Shown piece by piece: positions 12,276 to 63,429 of a stretch of 64,000 nt of DNA. Under the pieces are notes generated by a model, which was not told the origin of the DNA, searched no databases, and was given only the letters and a program-made list of their open reading frames with translations. Source of the stretch: Metaphire vulgaris (Eukaryota; Annelida; Clitellata; Crassiclitellata; Megascolecidae); NCBI GenBank assembly GCA_018105865.1, contig CM030870.1, forward strand, positions 188,501-252,500, read 5' to 3'. Each line of letters begins with the position of its first letter. Position 1 is the first letter of the stretch. A program made the position numbers and the translations under genes.

Positions 12276-14070
12276 TAGGGGGGTTAATCGTGCGAAGCGT
12301 CCAAGTATCGATGAAGAGGTCCTAGAGACCGAGGACAAATCGATCACCAGCTAGCCCTTACGGGGGCGAAAGGAGAGGCAGCTCTGATGAGTAGAAGACC
12401 TCTCGGTTGGTATAGCCTCTCGTACGAAAGCTCGCCGCAGTACCTCCTCGTGGTACCCCCCGGAAAACTGCCCAAGAGCAGGCTAAACTCTGCGGTGAGC
12501 GCTTAGACAGAGAGATGGTGTCTCCAGAAAAACACCGCAGGGAAGGAACTGGGAACCCACCCTGACTAACATCCCTAGTGCAAATGTATCCAGTAAAAGA
12601 GAAATCAGCGAACGACGTTAACGGAGCCACTGACTTAGTTGGTGGAGACGCGTCCGGCAGTGGGAGTAACAGGGCTTCCAAGGTCGTCAACAAGCGAAAC
12701 CCTGTGGAAAACAGAAAAGCTAAAAATTGGAACGTGGAATATTAGAAGTATGTTACGACCTGGGAAGCTAGCAAATATCATACAGGAAATGAGAAAGGCG
12801 CGATTGGACATATTGGGCTTGGCAGAGGTGAGATGGAAAGAAGGAGGTGAGTTCACCAGTAATATAACAGATGAGGAGACGGAGGAGATCAGGGTTATTT
12901 ATGCGGGAGGAAAAGAGAGGCAGAGAGGGTGGCATTACTCCTAAAGAAGGAATTGAGCAGAAACATAACAAACATAGAGAGATTTGAAGACAGAGTGATA
13001 ATGGTGACAATAGAAGCGGAGCCCAGTAAATCTGACAATTATACAGGTATATATGCCAACAACAACACATACTGAAGAAGAAGTGGATGAAATTTATGAA
13101 TATCTAGAGGAGAAAATCGAGAGGATAAGAGCTACAAATTTCTGTGTTTTGATGGGGATTGGAATGCAGTAGTGGGAAAAGAGAAGGAAATGTGGTGGGA
13201 GAGTATGGGATGGGGTTAGAAATGAAAGAGGAGAAAAACTAATTGAATTCTGCAAGTTAAGAAACATGATGATAGCAAACACTTGGTTTAAAAACGAAAA
13301 GAGAAGAATATATACATGGAAGATGCCTGGAGACATAGCAAGATACCAAATAGACTACATTATGGTAAATGGACGATATAGAAACTGTGTAAAAATGCGA
13401 GAGCTTACCCAGGAGCAGATGCAGACACAGATCACAACTTGGTAGTAATGAAGGTGAGAATACAACTGAAATATATAAACAAGAGAAAACAATTAAATAT
13501 ACAATGGGATAGAGATAAAATCAAAGAAAAGGCAACAGAAATTGGGGGAAGATTGAAAAACAAGTGACGACAACAAACACAGGAGAGACAACGGAAGAAA
13601 GATGGGGAAAACTAAAATCTGTGGTAGTAAGAGAACTAGAGCAAGAAGTAGGAAGGAAGAAAAGAAGGAAAGCTAAAAAGCCATGGGTGACAAATGAAAT
13701 GATAGAAGACATGGAGCAGAGAAGAAAATGGAAGAAGCAGAACACAGAATATGCAAAAAGAATATAGGAGACTAAATAACCAGCTGCGAAGATCAACAGA
13801 AAGGCGAAAGAGAAATGGTGGGAGAATAAATGTCAAGAAATAGAAAAGTTACAAGGACAAGGGAAACAGGATCAAGTATATAAGGAAGTAAAAGATTTAA
13901 CAAAGAAAGAAGGTATGCAAGGGAGCAGGGCGGGTATTAAAGACAAACAAGGAAATACACTCACAACCCAACGAGAAGTGGAAGAGAGATGGAAAGAATA
14001 TATAGAAGAATTATACCTGAAAGACAGCAAACCAACGGAACTCAATATAGAGGAACAGCAAACAGTTGGA
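12276..14070 (+). mobile_element. Same LINE, inverted 5' part: 5'UTR and APE-type endonuclease
   Basis: The + strand carries a roughly 360-bp 5'UTR-like stretch and then an endonuclease/exonuclease/phosphatase domain: KLKIGTWNIRSM, KARLDILGLAEVRW, then a frame-broken remainder, and the linker REVEERWKEYIEELYLKDSK ending at 14070. The linker stops where the RT part at 10778-12275 begins, so the two parts form one element with its 5' portion inverted. Several frameshifts and stops occur (for example at 12944). Confidence 0.85.
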
Positions 14071-16991: not shown

Positions 16992-27403
<10,412 letters not shown>

Positions 27404-33606: not shown

Positions 33607-36600
33607 TCATGTGGTGACGGCGATGAAGTCCTTCTCCTCCTCCTCCTCCTCTTCTCTTCTTCTTCGATGCATGACCGTTGTCATTCGTCGTCTGGCGTCG
33701 TCGAGGGCGAAGCGTTGCAGAGGCCGAGGGCTCGGCTCCCTCCTCTCCCATCGCCCTCCGCCGCCGCCGCCGTAGATCGACTGCTGCTGAGGATGAGGAG
33801 GAGGAGGTTGATAATCGTCGAGCAGCATCCTCCTCCTCCTGCGACCGACTCCTCCCCCTCCGCCGTCAAAGACCAGCGCCGCCGCCTTCTCCTCCTCCTC
33901 CTCCTCCTCAGTGGGAGGACCAGCGGCCGCCGATCGGAGCAGCGGTCTTCCTTCCTGAGATCGAACCTGAGAACGAGAGGTTGTTGTCGGCGATCGGGGC
34001 TGCTGCTGCTGCTGCTGCTGCAGCTGAGGGGGGTATCTTGAGATGCTCGGGAGTGTCTCTCTCCTTCTGACCGACTGATGGACGAATCGCTTTGGACTGC
34101 CGCCGTTGCCTAGCAACGCAGTTGTTCTTCTGCGCTGGTTCTCTGGTGTCCTCTGTCCGTTCGAGTCGAAGTACAGTTGACCTTGAGAGGCGCTCAGATG
34201 ATGATGACGACGGTGGGGAATGGGAGGAGCCAGTGGGGCGGAAGGCGGAGCAGGAGGAGAAGAGGAGGAGGGTGGTGGCTGTGTGGGCAACTGACGATGG
34301 AATTCTCTTCGGAGGAAGCGACCGAGTGTCACGTGATCAGATGATCGATCGAAGTGGCGCCATCTGTCTCCGGCGACTGACGTCTCTTCTCGGGCGTTCT
34401 TAGGACGGAGCTCTTCTTCGTTAGACGCGTTCACAGGGTCACGTGACGAGGAGGCGTCGTGGCGCCCCCCATCGAGGCGAAGGACGGACGCCGAGGGGAT
34501 CCCCCCTGCCTTTGGCGACGGGAGGCGCCCAATGGACGGCGGCTGGTGGCTGTGGTCGTCTTCCCGTGCACTGGAGAAGGAGGGGTCGGTGGGGGAGGGT
34601 GGGCGCAGAAGAATCTTGGGGAACGAGAGAGTGGGGGGTCCACTTTCTGCCGAATCAGAAAGATCTTTCTCGTTCGTCTCCATCTGAAGAACAGACCGAA
34701 GCATTCTGGGAGATTTCTGCCTAGTCACGTGACTCCTGTTATGACGCCCTTCTGACTCTAAGTTCCTTCTGTTGTCCGGGGTTTTTGACCTTTTGCCCTG
34801 CGCCGCCTCACCGAAGTCCCTCCCTCCCCCTCCGGTTCCAACGGAGCGACTGCGATTGGCTGGGTGGTGGGGGGACGGCACCCCATTGGGTCCCCCAGAC
34901 GACGGCACGGGGGCCCCCCTATCAGCTTCGACCGCGTCAGACGAGGCGCTGTCCTCCTCTTCCCTCTGCCGGGACAGACGCCGTCGCCGCCGCCGCCGCT
35001 GTCGATCGTCGTCCTCTACGACGACGGAGACTACGCCGTTGCTGCTTCCTCCTCCTCCTCCTCCTCCTCCGCTCCTCCTCCTCCTCCTCCTCCGGAAGAG
35101 GATCAGGACAACTGCTGCTGCTCCGGTGTCCTCCTTCTCCTCCTCCCTCCTCCTTCTTCGCCAAGAGAAACTGGAGTCGTTTCGTTCTCAACTGGGAATT
35201 CTACACAAAAACATTCAACAGACGACGAAGAAATAAAAGAAAAACACGGCGTAAATATTAAAGAGATTAAAGTCCAGTTTCTTGATTATTTGGAGACTAA
35301 AATCATCACAAGACGCAGTTAGTTGCAAGAACTCACCCCTAGAGCTAGGTGTGGTCACCCTGCCCCTCTGACCCCTCCTTTGCCCTTCTCCCTCCCCCTA
35401 GAGACGCTAGTAAGTCCTGACGCCTAAGGGACCTGTTTCGAGACCTTTTCCAAGTGACCTTAGATTGACCTCATAGGCACAGCCGCTGTGGCCTTGAACT
35501 CTGACCCTAGGCAGTTTAAGGGGATTGCCCTTTTCCCCGGAAATTTCAAATTCCCCCGGAAATTTTGGCAGCCCCATAGCTGACTTCCCACCCGGATTTA
35601 TCACTTCCCCCGTCCCCGGAGTCCAGAGTCTAGATTTAAAGACTGTCCTGACCTCGGTGACTGACTTTGTCCGGAGCTTGTTCGTTGTATTGGAAGGCTT
35701 CCTGTCTCGCCCGCGTCGAGTCCTCTTGTGCTTTGACCGCCGCTCTGTCCGACTCCTCCGCCCTCTCTCTCGCATTTCTCCTTCTGCAGTTCACAGATCA
35801 CTCACCAGTTAAGCATTCTCATCGTCGTCGTCATCAGCATCAGTGGCGTAGCCAGGATTTCCGGAAGGGGGGTTTGGTTTTGATGGCTTTGATCATGACC
35901 CACGTCGAAAAATTCATGACAAGCAAAAAATATTTTCCGTCGACAGCCAAGGGGGTTGACCTCCAAAAGCGTGTCCAAAAATTAAAATGTATGGAAACAC
36001 GTTTTAAGCAGTTTTTTCGTCGGCAGCCAAGGGGATTTTTAACTCCAACCCCCTGGCTACGCCACTGATCATCATCTTATAAGAATTTTATGACGATTTC
36101 ATGCAACGACGTCGATCGTCGTCATCATCACAGTCGTTGTTGTTGTTGTTGTTGTGATAGTCGTTGTTGTTGTTGTTGTTACCTGTTGACAGCGATCAGT
36201 GCCTTCTGTTGCGCCACCTCGGCTGCTCTGATGGCTGAGACGAGGGCGGCGTCGACGCGATCTCTCAGCCTCGTTCTGCTCATCGTAAACAACTTCCGCT
36301 TATGACCGGAAGTGACGAGTTCGTTGTCCTTGTACTTTCCCTCGTCCTTCGTTCCGTCCTTTAGGGTCGTGACCCCGTAGCCGTGCTTCCTGTCGTTGAC
36401 CCATTCGCCGACGTATTTTAACCCGTCTGACCTTTCGCTGACCCCGAAACCCGACCTCTTGTCCGCCTTCCATTCTCCCATGTAAACCTCTCTCACCTGT
36501 GGATCGATGACGTCAACGTTCGTTCCCAGAATGCCGTGCCCTGTGTCAGCGCTGCCACCTAGCGACGACAGACCATGGCCACCTCCTCCTCCTCCTCCTC

Positions 36601-37185
36601 CTCCTCCCCTCGTCAGCGGTGACCTCCGTTGAGAACGAATGGCCTCAGGAAGGTCACCGGTGCTGTGACCTTTACGCAGCCGAAGCCTATAAACAACAAC
36701 AACAACAACAACAACAATGACAACAACAACAATGACAACAACAGTAACAACAACAATAACAACAACAACAGTCTGCAATATTAATCATAGCAAACAATTC
36801 CGAAGTTATCATCAGTTATTCCAAAAGGAAGACGGAGTACTGACTCAGTGAGTGGCGAAACCAGGTTTCCCGAATAGGGGTCACATCGACATTTAGCCTA
36901 CAGAAGACTACAGACCAAAAACATCGCCAAGGACTAACACTTCGATTCTCTTTCATTCATCCTATCTTGCCTCCCTCTCTCCCTCTCTCCCCAATCCCTC
37001 GCAGCTGCTTTGCACTGACCCCATCCAGAATAGAGGCCCCGTGGTACCCCATCGTAGCCCCTGCCCTCTGCACATGTAGACCCACTCTTGACTACGACAA
37101 TGAATTGAAGTGATAAGACCGATTCTGAATTAATCGGGCAATCAGCGATACTTGAAATCACATTCACATTACGTTACGTCACTTA

Positions 37186-37250
<65 letters not shown>

Positions 37251-37990
37251 CCTTTCTGCGAGTGATCGTCCTCCTCCTCCTCCTTCGTCTCTTCCTGTCC
37301 TCATCGTCGTCGTCGTCGTCGTCGTCGAAGTAGCGGTGAGGACGAATCCTCCCCTCTGTCGATCGGTGACCGTCCCTGGAGGGTCGTTGGGCAGCAGCTG
37401 AGGCAGCTGAGGCGGCGGCGGCGGTCGACGGTCGGAGTCGACGACTGCGTTGATGACGGACGGCATGGACGCGTGATCCCTGCGTCGTTGCTGGGCTGCG
37501 ATGCCGTAGGGAGCGCTGTGACGGACTCCGAATCCATGACGAACGCCCTTCAGCCACTGGCCTTGATACGCCCCTGCTAATCAAACGCACGCACACACAC
37601 ACACACACAGCATCCTCTCTCATCTCATCCACTACTTCCCACTGGCTCTCTGTCTCACTCAGTGTTTAATCTAGACTCCTGGACTCCGGGGGAAACTGAC
37701 AAAGCCGGGGGGAAAGCTGACAAAGCCGGGGGAAGAAACTGACAAAGCCGGGGGAATTCTGCTAGGGGGCTGCTGTTAGTTGATGTAGTATGCCAAAATT
37801 TCCGTGGGGGGGAATTCGCTCCGGAAACGGCCTAGATTAAACCCTGATCTCACTGTCTCCACTCTGACTGATCTACGGATGGATTTGGAGACTGATAATG
37901 GCCTATACCGTGATTAGACTCTTAGAGTCTTATTACTCTTATAATTGCATGGCGTTAATACAAGTGCAATATTATTATTATTATTATTAT

Positions 37991-38071
<81 letters not shown>

Positions 38072-39176
38072 AAGTATTAGTACTAAGTAAGAAATAAGTA
38101 AGATAAATGAGCGATTTATATATAATAGTATTGGTGTTCAGCGGAATATTTGAGATGCAGAAGTTTAAAATGTCTGCCGTCGTAGACTTTAGAAGAAGAC
38201 TTCTGATTATTAATTATAAGAGCCTTGACTAATACGTGCAATTGTAATTGGTCGATTGTTGAGCATCGTCTGTGTTGGTTGACTTCGAGTGGCTTAGGGG
38301 CGACTGAGGCGCGTTCACCTGGCACAGGTGTGCAGTCGATGTGCATCACAATGCCCTGCATCAAACGCTCTACAATCTGTCGCAGCAGCAGCAGCAGCAG
38401 CTTAAAGCGAATCTCGTGGGAGGGAGAGAGGGAGAGAGGGAGAGAGGGAGAGAGGGAGAGAGGGAGGGTGGATAGGCTTCTAGGCCTACTACTCATTCAG
38501 CGCAGATCGTTATGTCGGTCTCTGATCGACGCAGCAGAAGCCACGGTCTACGTTTAGGCCTAACTAGGTCCGGCCGAAGACCTTCCTGCAACAGGCCTAT
38601 AGACGTCACAGGCCTTCGAACAAAGGCCTATTTTCGCCCTGACTCACTCTCCTCCTCCTCCTCCTCCTCCTCCTCGACGAGCGAATGACTTCTTGTTCTC
38701 ATTCATTCTTTTCTCGGCGGATTAAAAAAATCGATTTCTTCAATTAATCGATCGCTTTTAATAATAATAATAATAATATATGAAGAATCACACGTGGCAC
38801 TGAGCTGCCCTCCCCCTCACTTTCCATGACCCAACGATCGTCGAATTCCATCCAATGTTTAATCTAGACTCTGGACTCCAGGGAGGTGGGAACTGACAAA
38901 GCCGGAGGGGGGAGTCAGCTATAGGGGCTGCTGTTAGTTGATGTAGCATGCCAAAATTTCCGGAGGAAATTTCCGGGGGAGAGTGGCAATTTCCTCCGGA
39001 AACGGCCTAGATTAAACCCTGATTCCATCCACGTTCTTATCTATCATAGGTGTGCAGTGCACTGGAAGAGACATGCATGCTTGGCTGACTTAGTTTCGAC
39101 AGAGACATAGGCCTAAATGTCCGTCCGTCCCATGTTCATATTATTAAGATAGCGCAATACTTTCACTCTGCAACCT

Positions 39177-39231
<55 letters not shown>

Positions 39232-39813
39232 CTCTTTTGCTAAGAAAGAAGACGGAAGAAGTCTTTCTCTCTCTGAGATCTGAACTTTCAGAATTTTAGT
39301 GACATGGCATACCCCCCTATTTGGATTAGGTGCGCCGTCGGCTGATGCCCTGGGCATTATGATAGTGGCGCCATAGAAGTTGATTGATTGATTGATTGCA
39401 GCTATACTGAGTGTATCTGGTTGATTACCTTCGTCGATGTATGTTTCGACTCCGTACCCGTCCTGAAGGTTGTTCGTCCAGGTGCCTTCGTACCTGGCGC
39501 AGGACAGCGTGCTCTGTCGTACTCCGTAGCGTCCTTTGTACCCGTGCGACCAATCGCCCCGATAGACCCAATGACCCCTGACCTCGACCCCCAATCCGTG
39601 CCTCTTCCCTTCCTGCCATTCGCCCGAATACGTATTCCCGCTGGGCCAGGTGTAGACCCCGCTCTCCTCGAAGCCCTGTACCCAGGCCCCTGCGTACTCG
39701 CCCTGGCCCTTTGGCCCCGTGCAGACCCCGTAGCCGTGGGCCTTTCCCTCTAGCCAACCCCCCGAATAGGACCCACCGTCTTCGAAGTCGAATCTACCCC
39801 CAGTTTTGCTCAT
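33607..39813 (-). CDS. JPH: Junctophilin (MORN-repeat membrane junction protein), 3' end uncertain
   Basis: Junctophilins tether ER/SR to the plasma membrane; the MORN repeats bind the plasma membrane. Minus-strand exons: 39813-39429 (start ATG), 37573-37252, 36686-36183, 35783-35653, then a long exon from 35200 leftward to a stop at 33607. Exon 1 opens with [20 protein letters not shown] and carries six MORN-type repeats ([36 protein letters not shown]). Two more MORNs follow the joining region in exon 3 ([34 protein letters not shown]). Exon 4 is the alpha-helical region ([20 protein letters not shown]). Phases 1,2,2,1 agree. The last exon changes frame between 35187 and 35103. Its 433-codon frame is low complexity (Pro, Gln, Arg, Glu), and no C-terminal membrane helix was found, so a further exon may exist. 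Confidence 0.88.
35841..36067. mobile_element. 227-bp hAT-like MITE
   Basis: Ends CAGTGGCGTAGCCAGG and CCTGGCTACGCCACTG are perfect inverses. Flanks atcagcat and atcatcat match in 7 of 8 bases. The interior repeats a GTCG(A/G)CAGCCAAGGGG block twice. In a junctophilin intron. Confidence 0.85.
37192..37250. repeat. (GA)n microsatellite at a junctophilin splice donor
   Basis: On the minus strand, exon 37573-37252 ends ...GAAAG and the intron starts GTCTCTCTC and runs on as a CT repeat. Confidence 0.9.
37660..37846. mobile_element. 187-bp hAT-like MITE
   Basis: Ends CAGTGTTTAATCTAG and CTAGATTAAACCCTG. Flanks gtctcact and atctcact agree in 7 of 8 bases. The interior has three copies of an AACTGACAAAGCCGGGGG unit. 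It is the same family as 38853-39021. Confidence 0.85.
37975..38075. repeat. (ATT)n, (AGT)n, (GGT)n microsatellites
   Basis: Adjacent triplet runs: ATT, then AGT/GTA, GGT, and again AGT. Confidence 0.9.
38853..39021. mobile_element. 169-bp hAT-like MITE
   Basis: Ends CAATGTTTAATCTAGAC and GCCTAGATTAAACCCTG, with perfect 8-bp target duplications attccatc at 38845-38852 and 39022-39029. Shares GGGGCTGCTGTTAGTTGATG with 37660-37846. Confidence 0.9.
39178..39228. repeat. (GA)n microsatellite
   Basis: GA run in the first junctophilin intron. Confidence 0.95.
39290..39398 (+). mobile_element. LINE/SINE 3' tail with (GATT)n
   Basis: Contains ATTTGGATTAGG, GCTGATGCCCTGGGCAT and GTGGCGCCATAGAAGTTGATTGATTG. 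The same sequence in reverse is at 63565-63720. In junctophilin intron 1. Confidence 0.65.
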
Positions 39814-40206
39814 AAATTCTAAACTGTCTGGGGAAGACAGGGCTGCTCCTCCTCCTCCTCCTCCTTCTCCTCCTCCTCCGATCTGCAGCTCTGACGACCG
39901 AAAGGGAACTTTTGCGTTCGCAGTGGGACGAGTACATCCAGCAAGTATGCAGTCAACAGAACCTCAAGTATGGACGTCGAGTATGGAGAGAGAGAGAGAG
40001 AGTATCCACTGTAACTCATCAGAACTCCTCTTCTATAGCGCCATTTGTATAATTCCGTCGTGCAAATCCAGCGATTGAGTTCGTCGTCAGGCGTGTCCAC
40101 AGGTGGCGCTTCATTCCAGAGAACAACGCGCAGTCTTTGGAAGTCAGTTCGCGAAAGTAATGGCGAAACTAAAGGACGATCGAGACAGGGACTGGAAAAG
40201 ACAACG

Positions 40207-47243: not shown

Positions 47244-48118
47244 CTAGTATTTCTCCTGTGAATCGTCTTCTCCATTCCTTCGTTCTTCTCCGATGTCCGA
47301 AATCTCTTGCAGTTCGTCGTCGTCAGCAGGACTCCGATGGTCGGTCGTCACGACAACAGGCCTGAGGTCGTCTCTTAGAAGGCTGACCTCTGTTTGTCCA
47401 TTTTCCAGAGTTCTGTAAAATATTCACATAATTATTGCAAAATCCATCGGAAACGATAATGATCTTCACTACTTCATCGCCTTGTAAACTTAGAGGGACA
47501 AGTCTTCATTAAACAATCCGATCCCTTTCTATTAATTATTTTGAAACACTTGTATAGTGTTATTATGTCTCTCTCTTATTACTCGTCTTATTAATTGTCA
47601 CAGAGATATTCAATGTAATAATTAGAACGCTCAACACATCTGCGTCTGCTGTGAAATGAAAGATTCAGAATACGCTTCGTACCGTCCGAAGGAGAAAGTG
47701 CTTTCTTTGACATCGTTTTTATCAGAGGTTTTTACGACAACCTTGTCCAAGAACCGTTCTTGGCCTTTTGCACCATGACCCACGATGACCTTACGGAGGT
47801 CAAGAAGGTCAACCACTTTGATTTCATACGCATCCATCTGCTGCTGCAAAACATCCAAAGTAAATGTTTTACAAATCAATCCTTGAAACTGCAAGAAAAC
47901 AAAAGAATGCAAAGACAGAAAACAAAATCATAATTTGAAGAAAAGTTGAATGGAATCATCAGATGTCTCCTCAAATAGGGCACATCTGATTGAACCACTC
48001 AAAACCAGTTATTATTATTATTATTATAATTATAATAATAATTATTATTATTATTATTATTGTTGTTGTTGTTGTTGTTATTGTAACAGCTGCTAAAAGC
48101 AAAAAACAGATTGTCCCA

Positions 48119-48165
<47 letters not shown>

Positions 48166-51100
48166 CATCATCATCATCATCATCATCATTATTGTTGTTG
48201 TTGTAACAGCTGCTACAAGCAAACAACAGATTGTCTGTCTGTTCTTCTTAAATTGTTATAATAGCATTTTATTAAAATTATAGTAATATGTTTTATAATT
48301 ATATAAAAACATAATTAGTTCAACAAATGGATTCATGGATTAAGCATGTGCGTGATCCTGACCTTGGAAACACTTGATGAGATTCTACGAGATTTCAGAA
48401 GTTTCCTCATTCCGCTGTCTCCTTGTTCCCCAACAAGACAAATGGAAAGTTCGGTTTCTGTGCTAACATCATCATCATCATCATCATCACCACCACCATC
48501 GTCGCCATTATGATGATGATGATGATGATGATGCTTTTCACCAATGTATACTTCAATACGATAGACACAAACTGCAACACAAAGAACAAGCAGCATGTGC
48601 ACTGTACAGTACTACAATCAAACCCAATAACAGTCATTTCTCTTAAACCAATGCTGTTATTATCATCTCTAGTTAGAACTCAATTCAAATATGTAATCAA
48701 ATTCCTGATAAGTGCTAGCGCACTGGATCATGGGCGGCCAGAGAAATTTTTCCAGGGGTAAAACACAATGGTTATGGTCAATATTTTAGCATGGTTTCCA
48801 AATGAAAAATTTTGCAATTTTAAAAGATTTGACAGAATTCCAGGTAAACTCCAAACAAAATCCGGCACTGTTATACTTTAATTGAATAGTGTTTTAGTGC
48901 GAAAATACTGGTCGAAAGCCAAAATATAGTTAGTTACAAAAATATATTTGCATTTTCAAGTGGGGGGAAGTGTCCTCCCTTGCCCCAATGTAAGGGTACC
49001 CATGCACTGGTTACAGTCACACAATTTGCACATTCCCTGAATAAAAAAATTAATGAGGTTCACTGTAACTAAAACCAAAGCAAAATTAACTGCCTGGGTA
49101 AAAGATAAATAAAACAGAAAGAAATCTCTGAATATGATCGGTCCTGGCGTGTGCATGAAAAAACCCAGAGAGAAGTGCAATTACACTAGGAAGGTAAAAG
49201 TCAGTCAGCTAAGGTTGTTAGCAGTTAACCGGTCCCAAGAGCGTGGCTCGGTCCTTCTAACCTTGACCAGTTAACCGTAATTTCAATTCAGCCTATAAAT
49301 GATGCTAACACAAGCGCCGGCAATATCAAAGCGCTTTGAAGCAGGCAGCCCAAGACACCAGTGAGTGTAGAGTTGCTAGAGTTGTATGCCTACTTCAAGG
49401 CTAGTTGTGGGAAAGACGCCTAGCTACTGCTAAAGACCTTTTTTTAATGGTTAACCGGTCCGTATATACCAGCAGTTTTAACAACCTTATCGTCAGCACA
49501 AAATGTAAATTCTCTGGAGACAAAATGTTGAACACAATCTTAGGAAATAGAAACACGTCGTCAATGATAATGGACAGCAGAGGGTCAGTTGCCCCCTCCT
49601 CCCCTGCCCTTGGGTGCTGCTTCAGATGCCTCAGAAGGAATGAGGAAAATATTCGAGACAAAGAGTGCATCTGGTCGCAGTCATTTTGAGAAACTGGTTT
49701 TCTGAATACACAAAGAGTCGACCGTAGCAAGTAGACCGGTTGCTCTTACCTGAAGCAGGTCTAAGATTCATCTGGTCAATGAAACCAGATTCTGTCTCAA
49801 CAGCAGCAGCAGCAGCTGGAATCACTGCAGCCTCCAACCAACCGTCACTGTCCTTGTCCTTACGAAGATGCTTCTGGAATACGAACTTATGCTTGCGATC
49901 TGATTTCGGTTCTTGCAAAGTCACCTTCACAAAAGCAAAGGATTGAGACTGCATTCAGTTACAACATAAACTGAAAAAATATTCATTCAAAAATTCAACC
50001 ACTAAACATTAACTTAAGAAACATTTGACACTCACTCTATTAAAACTACAGGTGGCGCAAAAAACCCGGACTATATTAAAATGCCAAACCTAATGTGACT
50101 AGTCTGGTTTTTGTTGTGCCACCCTGTATTAATTAAAATGCAGAGAAAGGTTTATAGACGCTATCATCATGTATAATAAATGAATAACGTAGCAGCAGCA
50201 GCAGCAGAACAATGCGTACTGTGTCAATGAGCCAGCTGTGACCATTGGCAGTTGAATCATCAAACCCAATTCGAATTTTAAAGACGTCACCCACATCGTC
50301 TATTTTCACCTAAAAATCAATCAAACGGTCTAACGAGTCCTAATTCTGAATGTGTTTCTATAAAAATGTAATGTCTGTTATTAATGAAAATGTAAAGTCC
50401 AGTAATTAAGGTATTACTAAATAGTAAATTTTATTACAGCTCTGTAGATGTTACTTAAATTCAATGGACATATATTGACAGCTTCTAGAGTAAATTATTT
50501 GCTTGCATTATGACATCACGGCTGCTGAGTGACTGTGATGATGATGATGATGATGAAAACAACCTTGAACTCATCACTGTGTCCTTTGCTGAATGCATTT
50601 GGGTCGTTGGGGTCAACCAAGGTCATCGTTAGGTCTTCTGACTTTCCGAGGTTTCCATAGACGACCAATCGAAGCAGAGACGCTGACGGCCGCTTTGTCG
50701 TTTGCTTCGACTTTTTACTTTGGCTGAGATCGTTGGCGTCTTTAGAGTGTGGAAGTTTTTGGGGGTCTCCTGTGACAGCAGTAAGACTCCACCAGGACCC
50801 TGAAACAGAAATTCAGTCTTAGAAATATCTTACCATTGGCCTTTTGGAAATTAGAGATTGAAAAGTGCATTACATTCGATCAAATTGAATTCAAATAAAT
50901 GGATAATTCAAAAGATTAATAAGAGAATAAGACAAAGCAGTTCCACAATTGACCTTTGTCGTCAGGAAGTTTCTTCTCAAGAAGTTCTCTTTCTGTTTTT
51001 CCATCTTCCAATCCTTTTTCCAACCACCTACAGAAAAGAATTCAGGCAAAAGAACGCTGAAATACATCAGATACTAAGACCACAGTTTTGGGGACTTTTC

Positions 51101-51225
51101 TAAAATCTAGGACTTTTCCTAAGAAATCTTAAGACTCACCTATTCACCATCGGTTATACGTAGTATTGTAATGCGCTCTTGTCTTTGGCCATTTTGCCAT
51201 GCTTATTGCACTATATAAATTGTCT

Positions 51226-51284
<59 letters not shown>

Positions 51285-54200
51285 CAGTTGGTAAATTCTT
51301 GACACTCAAAAGAATCTCTCCCAGCCAAAAGCTCATAGTTGAGAAGAACATCGAAAACAGCCAAATGAACTCTCACGGCTTTAGCCAGTCTCACCTGTGA
51401 CATGGGAAGACACAGGTATTTAGTCCAACATCACTCCAGGAACGCACAACGACCTTCTCGAGGAACCATCCGTCGCCAATCTTCTGCCTTGTGTGACCAA
51501 CAAGAATGCCTCTAATGTCGAGGAGATCAACAGCAGCCAAGCAAAAGACATTGCGCTGAAACACAGCAAGCAAAAAGTTACAATCAAATACAAATACAGT
51601 CACAACCAGCTACGAGTCCTTCTATGCAACACACTTCTTATGCCACAACAATAATTCTCAGCTATTACTATCGACATATTCAACCACAGCACACATCAAT
51701 CCTGCTTTATGTCTCTTGAAACTGATTATATTAGAGAGGAGTGACTTTATTATTAAAGGGTAACAAGCGTACAAAAGCAGAAAGTTTCCCTCATTCTAGC
51801 ATTTTTCATTGCAAAGTGCTTCACACCTCAAATGCCTTGAAAGCCCCGAGTTAAAGAGAAACACAGACTGGTTGGTGACACTATTTCCATCCATTAACAG
51901 ACATTTCGAATAACAAAATATTTCAAACCTCAACGGCCATTCCAAAAACTTCATTTGAAAATTTCTTGGATTCTGCGATTGGACGATTTTGACTTCCATG
52001 GAAAAGGAACCTCTCCACTGCCTCTTCCTCTCTCCACTGCACCAGAGCTTCCTGTTTCTCGTATTTTCCTTGATTTGCTCTGAATTCTTTCTTCTTCTCA
52101 TCGATTTCTTCCGTTCTCTTCTTCTTCGTATCTTCCTTGAATCGTCCCAAATCGGTCGTTACCATCTTCTTTATGCGAGAAAGCTCGTCTTTGACCGTCG
52201 CTTCTTGTTTCTGTTTCTTGCTCAGAGTTTCATCGGCACTTTGAACCTAAACATTTTAATGAACACAAACTGAAAACAACCTTTTACTATGCATCTGATC
52301 AACTGCTTTATACTCGGAGAAAGAAAACTAGTGAGATTATGCGACGTCAACAACCTCAACTAACTTTTGCATTTTAAAATAAAAACCATATCACAAAAAA
52401 ATCATCGTAGATTCTTTTAAATTGAAAGACCATTAACATACTCGTTCAAAATGGCTGAACTCTCACGGCTACCTTATAGGTGAGGAGGAGTTGGTGTTTG
52501 GAGAAGATCCTCAGAGTGCCTCCTCCCTCCTCCGGTGTCTTAAGACTTCCCTCCCACACGTCAGACCCTCCTTCTGAACGCAATAACTTTGACTCCGAAC
52601 CATCGGCTTCAATGCTCACAGGATCAGCATTTGTGGCCTTTATTCGAAACAAATACTCCGTATTGGCTTTCAAATTCCCAGTTCGTGGTTTAAGAATTGC
52701 AAACTGTGGTCTCCAGTTTGGCGATTGAACTGGAAATGGTGAACATGCGCTGTCTGAATTCTGCACGTTTATCAAATAAACATACAGTAATCTGTTGCCT
52801 GTCAAAATGCTAAGCTTATAAAACCCAAACTTTGGAAAGACGAGAGAAATGTGCAGAATTTCTTTGTTCTGGCGTAGATACGAATACTTGGACAGATCCT
52901 CTGCGTCAGCTCCACGGAAGGCAAATCGCTCCAGTCTGATGCGCAGGTCGACGTCTCTGCTGGACGCGGACATCGTTATGTCGAGACTGTTTTCGTTCAG
53001 AGGATCGATGATCGGATATTCGTGGCTAACGGATCTCAAGTGCAGTCCACTGGCTTCGGTCGTCTGATCTCCGATCGTAAACAGATCGTCATCGATTGGG
53101 AAGAAATTCCTGACTTCCGACAGATTCTGATCAGACTTTACTAAGTAGTTGCAGATATTCACAGTTGAACTGGATCCTTTCGTTTCCACGCTGAATATCT
53201 GGAAGAGGAAAGTGCCGCTGTGCGACAACTTCAGCAGAAAAACAAATTCATGTTCTGTTCTAAAGGAACAAACAACATCTGTGAGAATTTCTTTGTCATT
53301 CTTCACAATGCCATGGAGAGTGAGGCCTTTTGATTTCATCATTCGGAATCTCACCCTTGCCTCTCCGTTTTCCACTATCAGCGTTCCCCCTAACGGTTCA
53401 ACCGGCTTCAGGCCCAGGGTCCTCATATCGGCTCCAGGCCCCCACTCACTCCTCGGATTCACTGGATTCGGTTCCACTTCAAAATCGGGAATACGACAGA
53501 CGATGGCATACTCACAAACAGCCATAAAGGAGGCGCTCTCTCCCTGTCTAACATCTTTCCCATAGAGCTCCAATTTGTACCGTCCAATTGCAGGAAAGCG
53601 AATAGCAATGGTCAATCTCGCACCCGAGTTTTCCATTGTAACAAACCGATTCAAACTAGCGCCATCTATGGCGTTGAACGACGGATCAACCGAGGACTTT
53701 GACAGTTCATACATGAAGTGACCGCTGCTTCTTGACAATCCAAACTCAAGCACGACTTTCCCGTCTTTGTTGGCTTCAACGATGCACTTTGGATGGCTGA
53801 CGGAGGTCATCTCCAGCTGGAAGAAGGCCTCCCTCAGGTACGCCATCTCCCAAAACTCCTCTTCACTGACAGGTCGACTCAAGAGCTGAAGCGAAGGGTC
53901 ACATGACATGTGCGTGTAAATAAAGACCTCAGGATCGGTGAGGAAATAGAAATCGTCCGAAACGTAACCGCAGCCGTTGATGTCGGAATCTTCCGGAGCG
54001 CCTCTCCGGTTTCCCAGTCGCAGAACAGAATCGAACTTTGGTGGAGGAGGAGGAGGAGGAGGTGCTCCCGGTTGAAGGGACTGCGGCTGGCAGCAGATGG
54101 AGCCCCAGTGAGGGTCAACGAAACGCCAGGAACCCTCAACGAACACAATGCAGTAGTCGTTTGTTCCTGTTCTTCGCTTTCCAGGCCAACATCCGACGCC

Positions 54201-57200
54201 CTTCACTCGTCCTTTGATGACTTTGCAAGGAATCTTAGCAGAGCTACACAAAGTCAACATCAAATGATGGAGACAGAAATCAAAATGCATTTATTCACTT
54301 TAATAACAGAATTAACAGAAGTGGGAAATATTCAACTCGAAGCAGAAAGCAGCAGAGATGAAAGTGAAGACAAGAAACACATTTGTTGAAACATTTAATC
54401 ATGAACATTAGGCCAGTCAATGGATCAACCATTGGATCAATCAATCTTCAATCCAATTGAATGATTCCAGAGGACTATCATAGTAAGTGCATGACGATGA
54501 TCGCTTCAACAGAGAAAATGAAAACAAATCCACGGCTAAATAATTAAAACAACTGACAACATGTCAGATGATTAGCTCTAAATAACACTTCTCACAAAGG
54601 AGAATTAAATATAGGTAATCATTAATTAAGCAATAGTAATTGAACAAATAATACTAATTAGATCAAAATAAAAGGAAAAGGGTTACAACTGATTATGACA
54701 AGAAGACACTCGCCCTTGCAACCACAACAAAAACCAATGGAGCTCAATTGGAAATACACAAACAGCAGCAGACTCATCACCATACCTGCACATTTCAGCG
54801 AGTAATTCTGAATATCCGTTGAAAGAACGCTGAATAAGAACTGAAAGCAGATTATGAAGAGGAGTTCCAGACGGAGGAAGGGCACCGTCTGTAAAGTCAA
54901 GGACAATGTGAAGCCTCTGTGACGTGATCCACGTGAAGATCGCTCGGATGCGGTCGATTTCATTTTTTGCAGGTTTTACAAGATAAGACACAAGCGCATC
55001 GTAGCTCTTCACTGCCAAGTCCATTGGAGTCTATTCAAAGGCACAGTGCACAGAGGTCAAAAGTCAGAGGTCAAATGTCAATTGTGAAACTTTTCCAAAG
55101 ACAAACTAATAATACCCAAAATTCCAGCAATCAGTGTTTATCTCATTCATGCATTTAATAAATAGAGGCATTTATTAGATATTTGAAAATGAAATTTCAT
55201 TAAATGAAAAATACAAAAATACCAGTAGCTGCATAAATAATTAATTTATGAAATTTTTAAGTATTTCTGCAAAATATATGAAATCAAAAAAGCCAAAAAA
55301 TTCAGAATAAATTCTAAAGTGAAATTAGTTTATATAATTTGAGCATTTTGACCATTTTAGCGTGTCTGTCAATTTCTTCACAATCTGTCAAACTCAAGAT
55401 TTCTGATTTCTTCTTCATCGGTGGAATCAGTGATTCAGAGGAACCGAAGGACTTCGACCGATGACGGTTGGAATATTCTTGGCGAAATCTTTGCTGCTCA
55501 TCTGCCAACTGCACTGGGTTTGGAAATTCCAACTAAAACACACAGCATTCACATCAAATAACTCACATTATATCAACGGTTCTCAAAATTTTACGATTTC
55601 TTGCGTGGCGGTCCTTTAGAAATTTTTGTGATGATTTGCAGACCTTATAAAATTTGAATTTTAAACCAACTATACCGGTAGTTAACACATAGGCCACTTG
55701 TTTTGTCAATCAATTACTTAATCAGAAAATTGCAAATCTTAGTTATAAAATTTAAATTCAAATGGAATCAGCACTCTTAGGGCCATCAGTGCGTTTTGTG
55801 TTGGTGAGATATCTTGAGAAAGTAATCCCTTTACAGTCCCCCTGAAACCACTTGGTGGTCCCCTATTGGACCGCGGACCCCAGTTTGAGAGCCACCGCAT
55901 TATACGCATGTCATTTAACTATGAAAACATGTAAACCCTTGATCACAAGATGCAATACAATTTCACCGAAATGAATTAGATTACAGGTTCACAGCATGAA
56001 GGCAAAGTTTCTAACTGGTTCAGTGTGGATGGGCTTGAGAAGATTTCTCCGTCCGGTGTCTCCTCTTTCACCGTTCAGAGTCAAGAAGACATCGGAAATG
56101 TCGCTGGATGAGTCACGAGACGCAGTATAGAGCTCCACCTCATATCTAATCACTGAAGCAACAAGAAATCTGAAATTTTTCAATTACATTCTAGTAAAAC
56201 TTAGAAATCAGTTATCCAAATTATAACCACCAGAAAAAAGAGTAAGTTCTTCAGTTGTATTAAATACAAACAATACCTGACAATGATGATCTTGCATCAG
56301 AATTCACTGAAGTTGAACCTTTGTTGTCTCGAATCACTGGAATTTCCCACCAACCATCAAATAATTCTTTCCAAATTAGTTTATCCTCGAATTCAAAACA
56401 GAAGGACTTGCGTTTCTCTCTGTTCTGAAGTAAAACCTATTAATAAAACCACAGAAGAAAATCAATAGCGCTCTTCTGGTTTCTAGCGTCTAAATTAAAT
56501 TTCTCTCAGAGAAAATAGAAACTCTTCCTCACTGAATGGCCAAATTATTATCGCGTTTCTAAAATTGCAATTTAGACAAAGGTTGGAAGAAACTGTTGAT
56601 GAAATGGTAGAACCATTGAACGACAACTAGATGCCATTAAGTTAAACACCGTCCATTGTCAATATGTACGTCTGAAAGACCGACAGCAGTTTCAATCATT
56701 TGAAATGCTTTACTGTTTTCGGAAAATATTCTTCAGTTTCTCGTTTTCTGTCGTTGCAACCGATTCGAACTTTGTAGACTTTGCCGAGATTTTCATCCGC
56801 GAATTGAACCTGAGACATTCAAAAAAACAACATAAAATGAAGATTTATCAGAGAATTTCAAGGGAAGTCGGTACGTCCAGGGAAAAAACTAAAACTCAAG
56901 AATCACAGATTTCATAAAACAATTTAAACAACATTAGATACAATCAAACTTACATGGGCTCAAAAGGTTCAGATTATAGCCCAACCATTATGAGGCAACT
57001 GTGAGAAAACTGTTTACACCGAAAGTGATGAATGACCACAGGTGGAAGTCCAGTGCATGTAATTATCAAGGCAGTTGAGAGTAAGTAAGGGAATGACAGA
57101 TAATAGATTTATGAGTTCTTTACAAAGTCAAAGGATGAAATAATTGCTCCACCAAGTAATTCAAAGCACCTACAAGTGGACAATTATTCAGAATTAAAAT

Positions 57201-60200
57201 CCAAAATGAAGCGAACTGTGAATTTGACTTCCTCTCTCTTTTCATCATCATCGTCTTCATCTTCATCAACTGGTCGAAGATCCAACTCTGGCGTCTTGTC
57301 TTTGTCACCATAAACGACAATGACCATCTGACGACCAGACAGCCACCGACCGCCTCGACCAATTTCCCGGTCATCTTTATATGAACCAGTTGCCACGGAA
57401 ACAGTCCATAAGTCTACAGTTAAATGCAACGAAGCTTCTTTATAGAACATGTTGCTTCTGTTCTGCTTTGCCAATATGCTAATTAGGCTATTTAATTTGC
57501 ATAGATTACCACTCAGTTAATACAGTTCAGCAGTTAACCTTTATTGTCAGTCTCTGTGACATCACTGGCAGGAATTGAGTCTGACTTTGCATCGACATCA
57601 TTTCCTTCATCGCCTGACAATTCCAGAACTCTTTCAGTCAGTCCATCACCTTCATCTTCATCCAACCACCTACAATGAAGAAATCCAGATGAATGCATTC
57701 GAGATTTTGTCACTCTCTCCAACCACAAGAGCCGCCATCTTTTGCTTGTAACTGATTTGCTAAATTATGAAATGATCGACTGGGGTGGGGCCCGGCCCGA
57801 GCCCGAGCCCGAGGCCCGAGCTTTGAGGCCCGCCCGGCCCGTAGCCCGTAGCCCGTACCTTGCCGCCCGGCCCGAGGTACGGGCGGGGCTGCAAGGTAAT
57901 TTCATAAAAGTATAATCTGCTAACACGATATTAAATACAATATTCGTTTGTGAACTCAAAATCAAATAATTTTCATAAATTATATTTTTAAAATTATTTT
58001 CTTAGCTGTTCCCTAATTAAAAATTTTATTACAGCTTAGTTGTAACTATTGTATAATTGTCAATAGAACATTAATATTTTGTTGCTGTTAGGAAAAGAGG
58101 AGGAAAAAGGCAAGACTAAACAAATATAAACTTGAATTTATTAAAGAAATATTGTTAGCGCCCGGCCCGTACAAGGCCCGTAGCCCGTACATTTGCGCCC
58201 GTAGCCCGTACCTCGAGGCCCGTAGCCCGTACCGAGGCGCCCGGCCCGGTACGGGCCCCACCCCAGATGATCGATTAAATAGTGAAATGCATGAAACTAA
58301 GTGAGGATCCTACAAGAAAAACAAGTCATAACATTGGTCTGAGACAGTGAAACCCTTTGAATGTAACATCATTCCTCTTGAATTCACAATCAACCACAGT
58401 CATTTAACTCAGCTCCTAAATATCACTGACTGCCAGGGATAATTTTACACCCCCCCTAACACTCCCCCAATTTGAGGCCGACACCCCCTAAATTGATAAT
58501 CCTAGAAATAACCCTGCTGACTGCAAACAGTGCCGTTTGACATCAACCGAGTATCAAATGCAACACAGCCAACGACAATGACCTTCCGCATTTGAAGAGA
58601 TATTTGCTTCCACGACTATCTTTGTTCTTGCAATAGACCAAGACCTTATCCAAGAACCAACCGGAACCTGGCCCTTTCCCATCATGCCCCACTACGACCT
58701 TCACTGGCCTCATCAGATCAACCGCTTCGATTTCGAAAATGTCAACCTAAACAGAAGACACAATCACCAAAACAGCCTCAACAATAGCATTATGCATAAA
58801 AGCAAAATCTTAAATCTTAATAAAAAATCTCTAACAAAACACAATCACCACACAATAGAAATGATCATCTCCATGATCTCAATGTAAGAACAATATTCTG
58901 ATTCTGATAAAATGCCAAAAAATACAACATTACTCAAATCAACACTGTGGTCCTCCAATAGCATTGGATTTGTGTCACTGAAAGAGTTTTGCTGATAAAA
59001 CGAATGTCATGTCTTAATCAGGTTAATCCATCTAATCTTAACTGGAGAAATGTGCATTTCAAATCCAACAAAACAACAGTTGATGAGTACATTATTGCTC
59101 TAGGTGTAATCATATGCTGGCAATTTTAGTGTTCAGACAATACTCAGAAACAAAGAAAGAACAACTCTGATAATTAATTAATAAACCCAGTGGGACAATT
59201 TAGTTTAACAGCTCACAGTGAAGATTAATTGTCGTAGGTTCATTTGATTTACTTTCCAAAATTTGATTGTCTGATGTCTTATTATCACTCATCTATTTGA
59301 ATTTGATTATCGAATTGTGGCTTTCTTTTCAAAAGTGTTTAATTGTGAGAATGACTTTTCATTGAAACGTACATTTCCCGACTCAAATTTGTCTTTCTTT
59401 GCAGACAACGACTGCCGCAGCTGCCGTCTGCCGGTGTCGCCTCGCTCCCCGACAATCATAAGATGTACATTGGCATTTGTACCCGCAAACCGTACATCGC
59501 CAGTGTACACCTCCACCACATACGTCAACACTACAAGCATGAATAAATATTTACAGCTAATCAAGTTAAATTTCCGCAGTAAAACAACTGCTTTGATGGA
59601 ACAACACCTGAAAGTCCTTTTCTAATTATAAACTAGAACATTTGTGAGAACTTATAGGCACATGAAACGTAAAGTTTTTAATATAAACTTCAACTATTCA
59701 CGAGGCCAACATTACCGGATGAATGATAAAATTATTCCAATTACTCTACGACATACCCGACAACTTGCCACCAAACGGGACTTCCACCCAATTGGTTAAA
59801 GCGGTTCTGTCGGCAATTGAAGCGTCAACATCAAACGTGTACTCCTTCAAGAACTTCATATTCTGAAGTTTCATCTGTCAAATGCATTGAATAGAAGCTC
59901 TTTATACTCAGCTGTTATTAATTACAGCATGCAAAAGGCAAGTTCTTCACTCCAATTCCATCCGTACATGACCATAAACTTGCACATATGCATGGTTATC
60001 CATTGATGATTGAATGTTGTAGGTATAATGAAAGAGAGCAACTCTTTGGAAAGTATCTCATCTGTTGGAAAAAGCTTACAAAGGTCTAATTTGCCAACTC
60101 AATCGGCTGAACCCTCAGCAGAATTCAAAGCCCTTCTAACACAAGCAGCTGAATAAAGCCACACAACTAGCTTGTACTTTCAAGTCACATAAAATCTTTC

Positions 60201-62031
60201 ATCAAAATTTTAGACTCGAATAGCCACTTTGAAAACAGAAGAATATTAAATATATCAAAATTTACAAATAAAAATTTTAAGTCATTAAATAACAAAATTA
60301 CCAGATGGTTTCCATAGCAACTGACCTGATGCACAAAGATGTTTGGAAGCATTTTGTTTTTGTCCGAGTGAAGTCCAATGCGAATTTTATAGAGTTCACC
60401 AAGTTCACGATTAACAGACACTTCGTACGACTGACTCTGAAATGAACGCAGCAGAAGAGAATCAATGAATTCACCGTCTCAACCTCTATAACAGTTTACA
60501 ATGAATTATGTGGGCCAGAAAGGCCTTATATGCTGCTCAAAAGAGAGGATGCTAAACAGGTTTGTACTTTCATAATTAACAATACAAAATACAGCTCAAC
60601 AAAGGCTGCTTGTAGCCTGCTTGTTTTGACAAGCTAAAAAGAATTAAATCAGTGAAATTGAGTGGAAATAAAATTTCAATTTACAATGTACTCTTCCTTT
60701 CCGTTGCTTTGCTTTTCTGCAGTGCCATTCGTAAGCATAAGCTCTTCAGAAACGCTGACTTTGCCGTAAATAACGACGACGACTCCATCTGGTGAGTAAG
60801 GGTTCTTGACAGACTTTGTGCCATCCTTGAGTCGATGACTGACCAAGATCTTCCACTTTGTGTCTGTAGTCATTCAACACACACGATACAATTAGAAAAT
60901 CTCTCGATTCATAATGGATCCTATTAAGGTTGAAATGCAAACCACAGACAGAAAAAGTCTTCATCACTAAATCTGGATTCAGAGCAATTTCTTGGACACG
61001 GCAGAAGAAGACAAATAATAGCAGCCGCGATATCAAAAGACAAAATGAAAAACTGAGCAAAGCAGTAAACGAGTGACGCTTCTTTAATTCACAACGACAG
61101 AAACTTCCTTTTGACTGAGGAGGCGACTGAGGAGGAGGCACCATCGAGGGTTCTGGTGAACGAGGGGAAGCAGATGGAACTGAATGGAACAGTTTCTCTT
61201 CAGCAGCAGACGGTTCCTTTGGAAAGAGGATTCTTTCAATTGCGCCATCTTCCATTCCTGCGTCCAGCCACCTACGACAGGGCAGATGGAAGACACGGGC
61301 AGAACCTTCTCGAATAATCACCTTCTCCAGATACCAGCCTCCACCTAGAACCACCAACAAAACATCTCATTATTATTCTTATTATTTTTATTATTATTAT
61401 TATTATTATTATTAAACTGACAATTTCTTGTGCTCCATATTACCAAAATGTCATACTGAAACCTTAGAATTAGAAACCATCCATTGTGCCTTTGACATCA
61501 CAGAGATCGAATCCACAAGAGTGCTTCATTGTCAGCAAAGGATTTTTACAGGATAATATTTATATTTGAAACTATTTTTTCCACAAAAAGAAAAACCTGT
61601 GACATTATAATATTTGCATAAGTACTAGTACTCCTATTATGATGCCTGAGGTTCATCATATAAAGACTCATAATGACACATCACATAAATTAAGCAAAGA
61701 ACAGTTGGGCAAAACTGCATCAGATGAATTCAAACGCTGACGACCGTTACAGGAAAAGCAGAATGTATTGAAGTAACACCGAACAGTGTGCAAAACAAAC
61801 CTTCCATGTGGCATCTGTGACCGATTACGACCTTCCTGATCTCATCTAAAGAAATGGCCTGAATTTCAAAGGCGTCCATCTGTCCCGCTTGAAATTTGAC
61901 GTCGTTCTGCGACCGAAAGAGTCGTCTTCTCCCAGAATCTCCGCGAGAGCCGAACATTTGGAAGAAAACGGTCGCCGAAGTCTCCGAACCTTTCAGGGAA
62001 CCAGTGTAGACTTCCACTCGATAGGCGATCA
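47244..62031 (-). CDS. LOXHD1-like PLAT-repeat protein with an inserted KY/transglutaminase-like block (3' part, 24 exons)
   Basis: Minus-strand exons, left coordinates first: 61801-62031, 61105-61344, 60685-60863, 60326-60436, 59757-59874, 59373-59530, 58583-58746, 57539-57669, 57217-57413, 56714-56809, 56277-56436, 56016-56152, 55353-55532, 54786-55030, 52473-54243, 51929-52246, 51395-51555, 50954-51027, 50564-50799, 50220-50309, 49750-49948, 48363-48571, 47683-47843, 47244-47412 (stop). All phases agree; 1910 residues are visible. A-type PLAT (about residues 1-157, 293-444, 1732-1880) shows VEVYTG, GERGDTGRRQL, VVGHDGKG and GWFLDKV. B-type PLAT (157-293, 444-595, 1557-1732) shows WxxSVATG, VVYG and GELYKIRIG. 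KY block about 641-1479. PLAT domains bind lipids or proteins; location unknown. The donor at 61105 is the least certain. Confidence 0.88.
48005..48205. repeat. (ATT)n, (GTT)n and (ATC)n arrays with a duplicated segment
   Basis: ATT and GTT runs, the segment GTAACAGCTGCTA(A/C)AAGCAAA(A/C)AACAGATTGTC twice (about 48083 and 48203), and ATC triplets. In an intron. Confidence 0.85.
49210..49489. mobile_element. ~280-bp MITE-like inverted-repeat element
   Basis: The left end TAAGGTTGTTA, with AGCAGTTAACCGGTCC behind it, is mirrored by GGTTAACCGGTCC and then AACAACCTTA on the right. Flanks cagtcagc and tcgtcagc agree in 6 of 8. In an intron of the PLAT/KY gene. Confidence 0.6.
51165..51285 (+). 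mobile_element. LINE/SINE 3' tail with (TAA)n
   Basis: GTAATGCGCTCTTGTCTTTGGCC...GCACTATATAAATTGTCTAG then TAATAA; closely like 1411-1497. Confidence 0.6.
51929..55532 (-). CDS. Four-exon KY block inside the PLAT gene (KY/transglutaminase-like core, beta-rich domains, coiled coil)
   Basis: Part of the gene above. Exon 55353-55532 is a Ser-rich linker. Exon 54786-55030 and the start of 52473-54243 form the transglutaminase-like core: SYLVKPAKNEIDRIRAIFTW, FNGYSELLAEMC, AKIPCKVIKGRVKG, CIVFVEGSWRFVDPHWGS. The rest of the 1771-nt exon is beta-rich, with two or three hillarin/KY-like repeats (RSEWGPGADMRTLGLKPVEP, SPNWRPQFAILKPRTGNLKA). Exon 51929-52246 is Lys/Glu-rich coiled coil (KKQKQEATVKDELSRIKK). 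In the usual family layout the catalytic Cys would sit at the Phe codon 54821-54823 and the His at the Asn codon 54159-54161; the Asp (FVDPHWG) is kept. I infer a non-enzymatic domain. Confidence 0.8.
55574..55897. mobile_element. 324-bp hAT-like MITE
   Basis: Ends CAACGGTTCTCAAA and TTTGAGAGCCACCG, like the widespread hAT terminus CAGTGGTTCTCAAA. Flanks cattatat and cattatac agree in 7 of 8. Confidence 0.8.
57780..58266. mobile_element. 487-bp GC-rich-ended hAT-like element
   Basis: Ends CTGGGGTGGGGCCCG and CGGGCCCCACCCCAG are perfect inverses. Perfect 8-bp target duplications atgatcga at 57772-57779 and 58267-58274. Near the ends are arrays of CCCGTAG and GCCCGAG units; the middle is AT-rich. 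In an intron. Confidence 0.9.
58434..58516. mobile_element. 83-bp hAT-like MITE
   Basis: CAGGGATAATTTTACACCCC to CTAGAAATAACCCTG, with perfect target duplications ctgactgc at 58426-58433 and 58517-58524. Same family as 42814-42966. Confidence 0.88.
61372..61414. repeat. (ATT)n microsatellite
   Basis: ATT triplets next to the acceptor side of exon 61105-61344. Confidence 0.9.
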
Positions 62032-63293: not shown

Positions 63294-63429
63294 ACGGAAG
63301 AGGTCTCTTTCCAGGTCCAGAGACAGCAACTTCCCTCCAAATGGAACAGTCGTACATTCTACGTGACATCCATTGATTGACATCCAACGAAAGAATTTCT
63401 CTTTGACCCGACAGACTTTTCATCTTCAG
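63294..63429 (-). CDS. Probable further PLAT exon (third exon of a B-type module), frame unclear
   Basis: On the minus strand, acceptor TTATTTAG lies before CTGAAGATG and donor GTACGT after CTTCCGT. Length 136 nt gives phase 0 to 1, as in the matching exon 59757-59874, and the next exon (61801-62031) starts in the right phase. The reading frame starts KMKSLSGQREILSLDVNQW, but the family-like end VECTTVPFGGKLLSLDL is in the next frame. Either the similarity is misleading or an indel is present. Confidence 0.5.

Follow-up and report, generated by a model that had tools for sequence, protein, structure and literature searches.

Why do exons coding for a transglutaminase-like protein of the KY family lie between the exons of one PLAT domain, and do they belong to the same gene? 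This question is raised by a stretch of 64,000 nucleotides (nt) of the clitellate annelid Metaphire vulgaris (contig CM030870.1, here C39:188501-252500), which is referred to as the window and whose positions are used below. Some 40 kb beyond the window was added for the analysis, and genome searches covered 728 Mb in 246 contigs. It is highly probable that four in-frame KY exons sit in a phase-0 intron of the fifth A-type PLAT module (A5) of a minus-strand gene, likely brought there by copying of the genomic DNA of a standalone KY gene, with a product predicted to be a PLAT domain that carries a KY arm on one of its loops.

A PLAT domain split by four KY exons

The first exon of the split module (A5.1, 56016..56152, 137 nt, phase 1-0) is followed by an intron of 483 bp (55533..56015), the left edge of the insertion. 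The block begins with KY1 (55353..55532, 180 nt, 0-0), which can be aligned to exon 2 in the standalone KY genes of contigs C2 and C24, and continues with KY2 (54786..55030, 245 nt, 0-2), coding for the first half of a transglutaminase-like core, KY3 (52473..54243, 1771 nt, 2-0), coding for the second half and for four predicted immunoglobulin (Ig)-like domains, and KY4 (51929..52246, 318 nt, 0-0), a charged, coil-like exon which aligns with a coil exon of C2. A 373-bp intron (51556..51928) forms the right edge, after which the PLAT module resumes with A5.2 (51395..51555, 161 nt, 0-2) and A5.3 (50954..51027, 74 nt, 2-1). These exons had been proposed in a first-pass annotation of the window, and recomputing their borders, with the minus strand read directly over 50700-56400, gave GT-AG introns and the same lengths and phases. 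The four KY exons total 2514 nt, or 838 codons, open in a single frame with phase 0 at both outer ends, and the outer borders of the block are in phase with the A5 PLAT exons. An assembly artefact is unlikely, as each of the outer borders is an in-phase splice site.

The annotation had also described the A modules as sharing three exons with the phases 1-0, 0-2 and 2-1. This pattern, starting at phase 1, was found in A1, A2, A4, A5 and A6, with the reservation that the last exon of A1 ends in phase 0 and that of A6 at the stop codon. It fails for A3 (61105..62031), which consists of two exons with other phases (61801-62031, 61105-61344) and in which the phase-0 intron of the sister modules is missing and a different, phase-1 intron is present. 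The uninterrupted module A4 (57539..59530; exons 59373-59530, 58583-58746 and 57539-57669) serves for comparison and has its phase-0 intron at the same place as A5. Only in A5 is this intron replaced by an intron, KY1 to KY4 and a further intron.

That the block interrupts one PLAT domain is borne out by a profile built from A1, A2, A3, A4 and A6, with which the host protein was searched with and without the KY block. While the block is present, A5.1 is aligned to profile positions 1-39 (25.5 bits) and A5.2-A5.3 to positions 50-121 (58.8 bits), two complementary halves which become a single match of 91.9 bits across positions 1-121 once the block is removed. Similarly, the Pfam PLAT family matches A5 with 23.9 bits over positions 58-111 of 117 when the block is present, and with 35.7 bits over positions 1-112 when the halves are joined. 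Complete PLAT domains on each side of the block, an outcome set beforehand as one that would speak against the split, are not what the profile searches show. In six alignments the joined A5 is 36.5-39.5% identical to PLAT modules of Owenia, Lingula and Ylistrum across the junction, with 5-7 residues fewer there. The A modules alternate with modules of a second type (B), and the order B5-A5-B6-A6 independently predicts one A module at A5. Alignments of A4 to lipoxygenase PLAT structures place the junction after the KFESG segment, which we take to be a turn between strands.

Identity and origin of the inserted exons

The frame carrying KY3 scores 162.7 bits for the Pfam family Ig-like_KY (PF23265, cut-off 27), while the host protein as a whole scores 160.9 bits in three stretches, and an AlphaFold2 model of KY3 has four beta-sandwiches. 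The match of the core to the transglutaminase family (PF01841) is 13.4 bits, below the cut-off of 23; across the genome this family gave one match, on C36, and is unusable as a yardstick. To the earlier description of the insert as a KY core, beta-rich domains and a coiled coil can be added that the core has lost its catalytic His and that the beta-rich part is predicted to be four Ig-like domains.

At six other loci the core motif reads NHSWN (five loci) or QHSWN (one locus), followed by VDCHW. The window copy has TNDYCIVF and then VDPHW, so that the His is lost and the Asp kept, both of which are presumably catalytic residues. Among the readable KY loci, six keep this His and three, the window copy included, have lost it. 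At the presumed position of the catalytic Cys, the two sequences compared read SFNGYS (window) and WGNGYS (C2); motif searches for the Cys exon of an intact KY paralogue gave nothing. Because of the lost His, an active enzyme is disfavoured and the KY core, judged from its residues, is more likely to be a binding module.

With the KY block alone as query, 11 proteins were identified, all with PF23265 (11/11) and none with PLAT (0/11). The closest are 93, 57, 55 and 39% identical over 69-89% of the block: three unnamed proteins (93, 57 and 55%) and the Helobdella robusta protein P0042 (39% over 89% of the block, 566 bits, the next named relative having 222), followed by further unnamed proteins and molluscan ones at about 27%. 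Over KY3, protein P0039 is 93% identical across 593 residues, and P0040 and P0041 are 55-57% identical.

The KY family is expanded in the genome, with 77 PF23265 rows chained into 26 loci (8-kb spacing). Of the 30 rows that were fetched as loci, one on C2 comes nearest to the block (42% identity over KY3, 48% over KY2), followed by C24. Both loci look standalone from their sequence, the host protein matching the two 40-kb stretches only through its KY part and Helobdella P0042 also matching further C-terminal exons. The genome-wide Pfam PLAT search reported only one exon of the host gene, and is too insensitive to tell whether other KY loci lie inside PLAT arrays. In the C2 gene an exon reading MGCG...PVQ and ending in phase 0 is followed by KY1 (0-0, 201 nt), KY2 (ending in phase 2), KY3 (acceptor picked by frame; donor in phase 0, GC-AG) and KY4 (0-0, 327 nt), the last reading VMSADE where the window has VQSADE. 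The KY3 donor of C2 reads AAG/GCAAGT, at 21170-21190 of the joined C2 stretch. On C24 the corresponding exons are KY1 (195 nt, 0-0), KY2 (248 nt, ending in phase 2) and KY4 (342 nt, 0-0).

The window block corresponds to exons 2-5 of a C2-type gene, with the same phases 0-0, 0-2, 2-0 and 0-0, and KY1 begins about ten residues inside C2 exon 2 (180 versus 201 nt). A tblastn search of the block against the C2 and C24 stretches gave no KY1 or KY4 match. When aligned directly, KY1 with C2, C24 and Helobdella reached scores matched by 0/500 shuffles each, as did KY4 with C2; the KY4 alignment is not significant with C24 (41/500 shuffles reach the score) or Helobdella (94/500). The standalone annelid genes (Helobdella P0042, C2 and C24) share with the insert the exons matching KY1 to KY4 in the same phases, a core lacking the catalytic His, and Ig-like domains. 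They differ from it in having an MGC start exon (C2 and Helobdella) and a dynein-tip-like C-terminal part, neither of which is present in the insert. Helobdella P0042 and the molluscan KY proteins have a helical C-terminus; with the family profile of this part, dynein stalk or microtubule-binding domains are matched in PDB (E about 1e-5), and exons at the C2 locus match the helical end of P0042, giving a KY-plus-dynein-tip-like protein.

The target intron appears to be older than the insert, since four of the other five A modules of the host gene (A1, A2, A4 and A6) have a phase-0 intron at the same position. The insert is flanked on both sides by introns of the same phase (0). As the start exon and the C-terminal exons of the C2 gene are absent from it, the block was likely copied as DNA into this intron. 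Its own introns stand at the positions and phases of those of the donor type, which rules out a retrocopy and points to exon shuffling, in which recombination within introns would have placed the KY exons in the A5 intron. A tree of KY3 joins the window copy to P0039, P0040 and P0041 (100/100) and C2 to P0043 (98/99), the data leaving the positions of C24, P0042 and P0044 unsettled. Since the window copy falls with P0039-P0041 apart from C2, the KY copy probably predates the split from P0040 and P0041.

The host gene, a member of the RP1 family

The host gene model was assembled manually, guided by splice sites and open frames. It has 47 exons and 3140 codons with no internal stops and 46/46 GT-AG introns, and runs on the minus strand from an ATG at 79983 of the extended window (C39:268483) to a stop codon at 47244. 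Far from the KY block its borders were partly chosen among close alternatives, such as 47840 or 47843 for A6.2 and the 3′ end of DCX2. The modules follow the order DCX-DCX, B1-A1, a beta-trefoil-like stretch of five exons, a linker, B2-A2, B3-A3, B4-A4, B5-A5 and B6-A6. Every B module has the exon phases 1-0, 0-0 and 0-1. The part in the window starts with exon B3.3 (63294..63429), upstream of which the gene goes on with B3.2, B3.1, A2, B2, the linker, the trefoil-like part, A1, B1 and the two DCX stretches. It continues with A3, the three exons of B4 (59757..60863), A4 and B5 (56277..57413; exons 57217-57413, 56714-56809 and 56277-56436), which lies directly upstream of A5. B6 (49750..50799; exons 50564-50799, 50220-50309 and 49750-49924) lies directly downstream, followed by A6 with the stop codon (47244..48571; exons 48363-48571, 47683-47840 and 47244-47412). 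Exon A6.1 (48363-48571), within this last PLAT module, contains runs of His and Asp, HHHHHHHHNGDDGGGDDDDDDD.

The two doublecortin stretches at the N-terminus score 89.5 bits (PF03607), and the PLAT family (PF01477) scores 140.7 bits in the N-terminal part of the protein. The A-module profile gave 11 matches on the KY-free host protein, with B4 unmatched and B5 reaching only 6.1 bits; B5 is not recognised as PLAT by Pfam either. In the trefoil-like region Pfam found only IL1 (17.8 bits, below its cut-off of 25). This region lies inside the colinear match to the Lingula protein P0003, itself matching FGF with 24.5 bits against a cut-off of 24.

A search with the whole protein was scored on the A5-KY-A5 region, for 7988 candidates sharing most words with the query and having 0.55-1.75 times its length. 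It gave 38 proteins, of which 37 combine PF03607 and PF01477, the other being a snail KY protein. Ig-like_KY is annotated in 0/37 of these relatives, and direct scans of Owenia P0001 and Lingula P0003 gave no KY domain. The relatives range from Trichoplax to birds, some bearing the names oxygen-regulated protein 1 or LOXHD1-like; the best named one is from Owenia (454 bits, the next having 334), like Helobdella an annelid. With its two DCX stretches, PLAT pairs and likely beta-trefoil, the host gene is, on domain composition, a member of the RP1 family. Two N-terminal DCX domains and PLAT modules are common to the host and to this family (Owenia P0001, Lingula P0003, turtle and bird RP1), many members also having an FGF-like trefoil. 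Lingula P0003 is colinear with host residues 17-1871 at 36% identity, and Owenia P0001 has two DCX domains, 23 PLAT stretches and an FGF match. The host differs from the family in having one A-type PLAT broken by 838 codons.

LOXHD1 is known as an array of PLAT domains only. Tandem PLAT modules are common to it and the host, whereas the DCX domains and trefoil-like part are found in the host; the DCX domains and the colinearity with RP1-type proteins rule it out as the host gene. In the accessible part of a 2006 survey of DCX proteins, 'plat' occurs only within the word platform. In its own genome the host DCX exon has no other close match (the next is 37% identical) and two trefoil-like exons find nothing but themselves, so that an uninterrupted second copy of the host gene is not seen.

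Downstream of the RP1-type gene, on the same strand, MORN repeats (67.5 and 49.3 bits) occur in open frames at 36182-39963, which we assume to be junctophilin-like. Further down on the minus strand, at 11425-12350, lie fragments of a frame resembling reverse transcriptase (RVT_1 20.8 bits for 11793-12350, below the cut-off of 29.6), probably a decayed long interspersed nuclear element. Elsewhere in the genome, contig C25 holds 44 of the 80 PLAT rows, mostly partial matches lying mainly at 0.4-1.9 Mb, in a large PLAT gene cluster.

Alternative readings and the proposed nested protein

Three other explanations of the locus were considered. The KY exons might be a gene of their own that lies within the PLAT intron and is never joined to the PLAT exons. 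Such a gene type exists elsewhere in the genome, and several observations weigh against the joined protein: an AATAAA lies within the intron following KY4, a stop codon stands one codon beyond the KY4 donor, and protein searches gave no support for the join, that for the 5′ junction finding a spliced relative in 0/101 candidates. A nested gene is nevertheless very improbable. No MGCG-like start exon is seen in the 483-bp intron (the frames from its 10 ATGs are no longer than 56 codons and none is similar), and KY1 starts inside the exon of its C2 counterpart. Such a gene would also lack both a stop codon and the C-terminal exons found in the C2 gene and Helobdella P0042, while having both outer borders in phase with PLAT exons to which it did not belong.

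The block could instead be an alternative cassette, with some transcripts skipping the four exons to give an intact A5 PLAT and others including them. Owing to its symmetric 0-0 phases the block can be left out without a frameshift, which brings back the 35.7-bit Pfam match, but four exons would need to be skipped together and the splice sites are ordinary, the A5.1 donor ranking 13/46 and the A5.2 acceptor 27/46 from the weakest. We regard such a cassette as unlikely. Somewhat less probable still is a passive insert, which leaves the PLAT undisturbed and has no selected role of its own; the loss of the catalytic His and the want of an annotated KY domain in the 37 host relatives would suit it, but the 838 codons have stayed open and KY3 is conserved in P0039, P0040 and P0041.

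If the KY exons are joined in frame to the two halves of A5, as is preferred here, the A5 PLAT would close around the base of the KY/Ig arm. Vertebrate RP1 binds microtubules by its doublecortin domain, and data suggest that it stabilises the photoreceptor axoneme (PMC12203965, as far as the accessible text goes). By sequence profile, the nearest solved relative of the window KY subfamily is FAP246, described in the accessible text as part of the C1b projection of the ciliary central apparatus (PMC7999657, PMC9113940). The parts given for FAP246 in the text available are a leucine-rich repeat (LRR), TGC and EF-hand (PMC7999657), and it is not described there as belonging to a PLAT or DCX protein. 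From the microtubule binding of RP1 and the place of FAP246 in the central apparatus we infer that the host product may be an axonemal, microtubule-bound scaffold like vertebrate RP1, bearing a docking arm: the DCX end would hold the protein on axonemal microtubules and the KY/Ig arm would supply a docking surface for a partner. A bolder and rather doubtful extension is a splice-switchable nested domain, in which the KY cassette gives either a closed PLAT or a PLAT with an 838-residue FAP246-like arm (four Ig domains and a coil), and which would serve as a central-apparatus docking module on an axonemal microtubule stabiliser in clitellate worms.

A survey of animal proteins found 71% of domain gains at protein ends and fewer than 10% of events to be intron insertions, and among 49 domains gained as novel middle exons, 28/49 had flanking introns of symmetric phase (PMC2926785, in the accessible portion). 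Exon shuffling into an intron is thus a known kind of event, and the splitting of a domain is the new variant here. In the open PMC literature no paper was found that combines KY, kyphoscoliosis peptidase or hillarin with a PLAT domain, nor one describing a PLAT-transglutaminase-like fusion; of two papers that bring together at least three of doublecortin, PLAT domain, RP1 and LOXHD1, the one listed is unrelated.

What gives the locus its value is that one genome preserves several kinds of trace of such an insertion: a gene of the donor type whose exons correspond to the block, sister modules that have the target intron, and the split domain in its two halves. Relatives in other animals are without the insert. 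As the insertion lies within a domain and not between domains, the tolerance of a beta-sandwich for a large insert becomes testable. For the RP1 family, it would mean that an RP1-type protein has been joined to a KY module which, by profile, has its nearest solved relative in a protein of the ciliary central apparatus.

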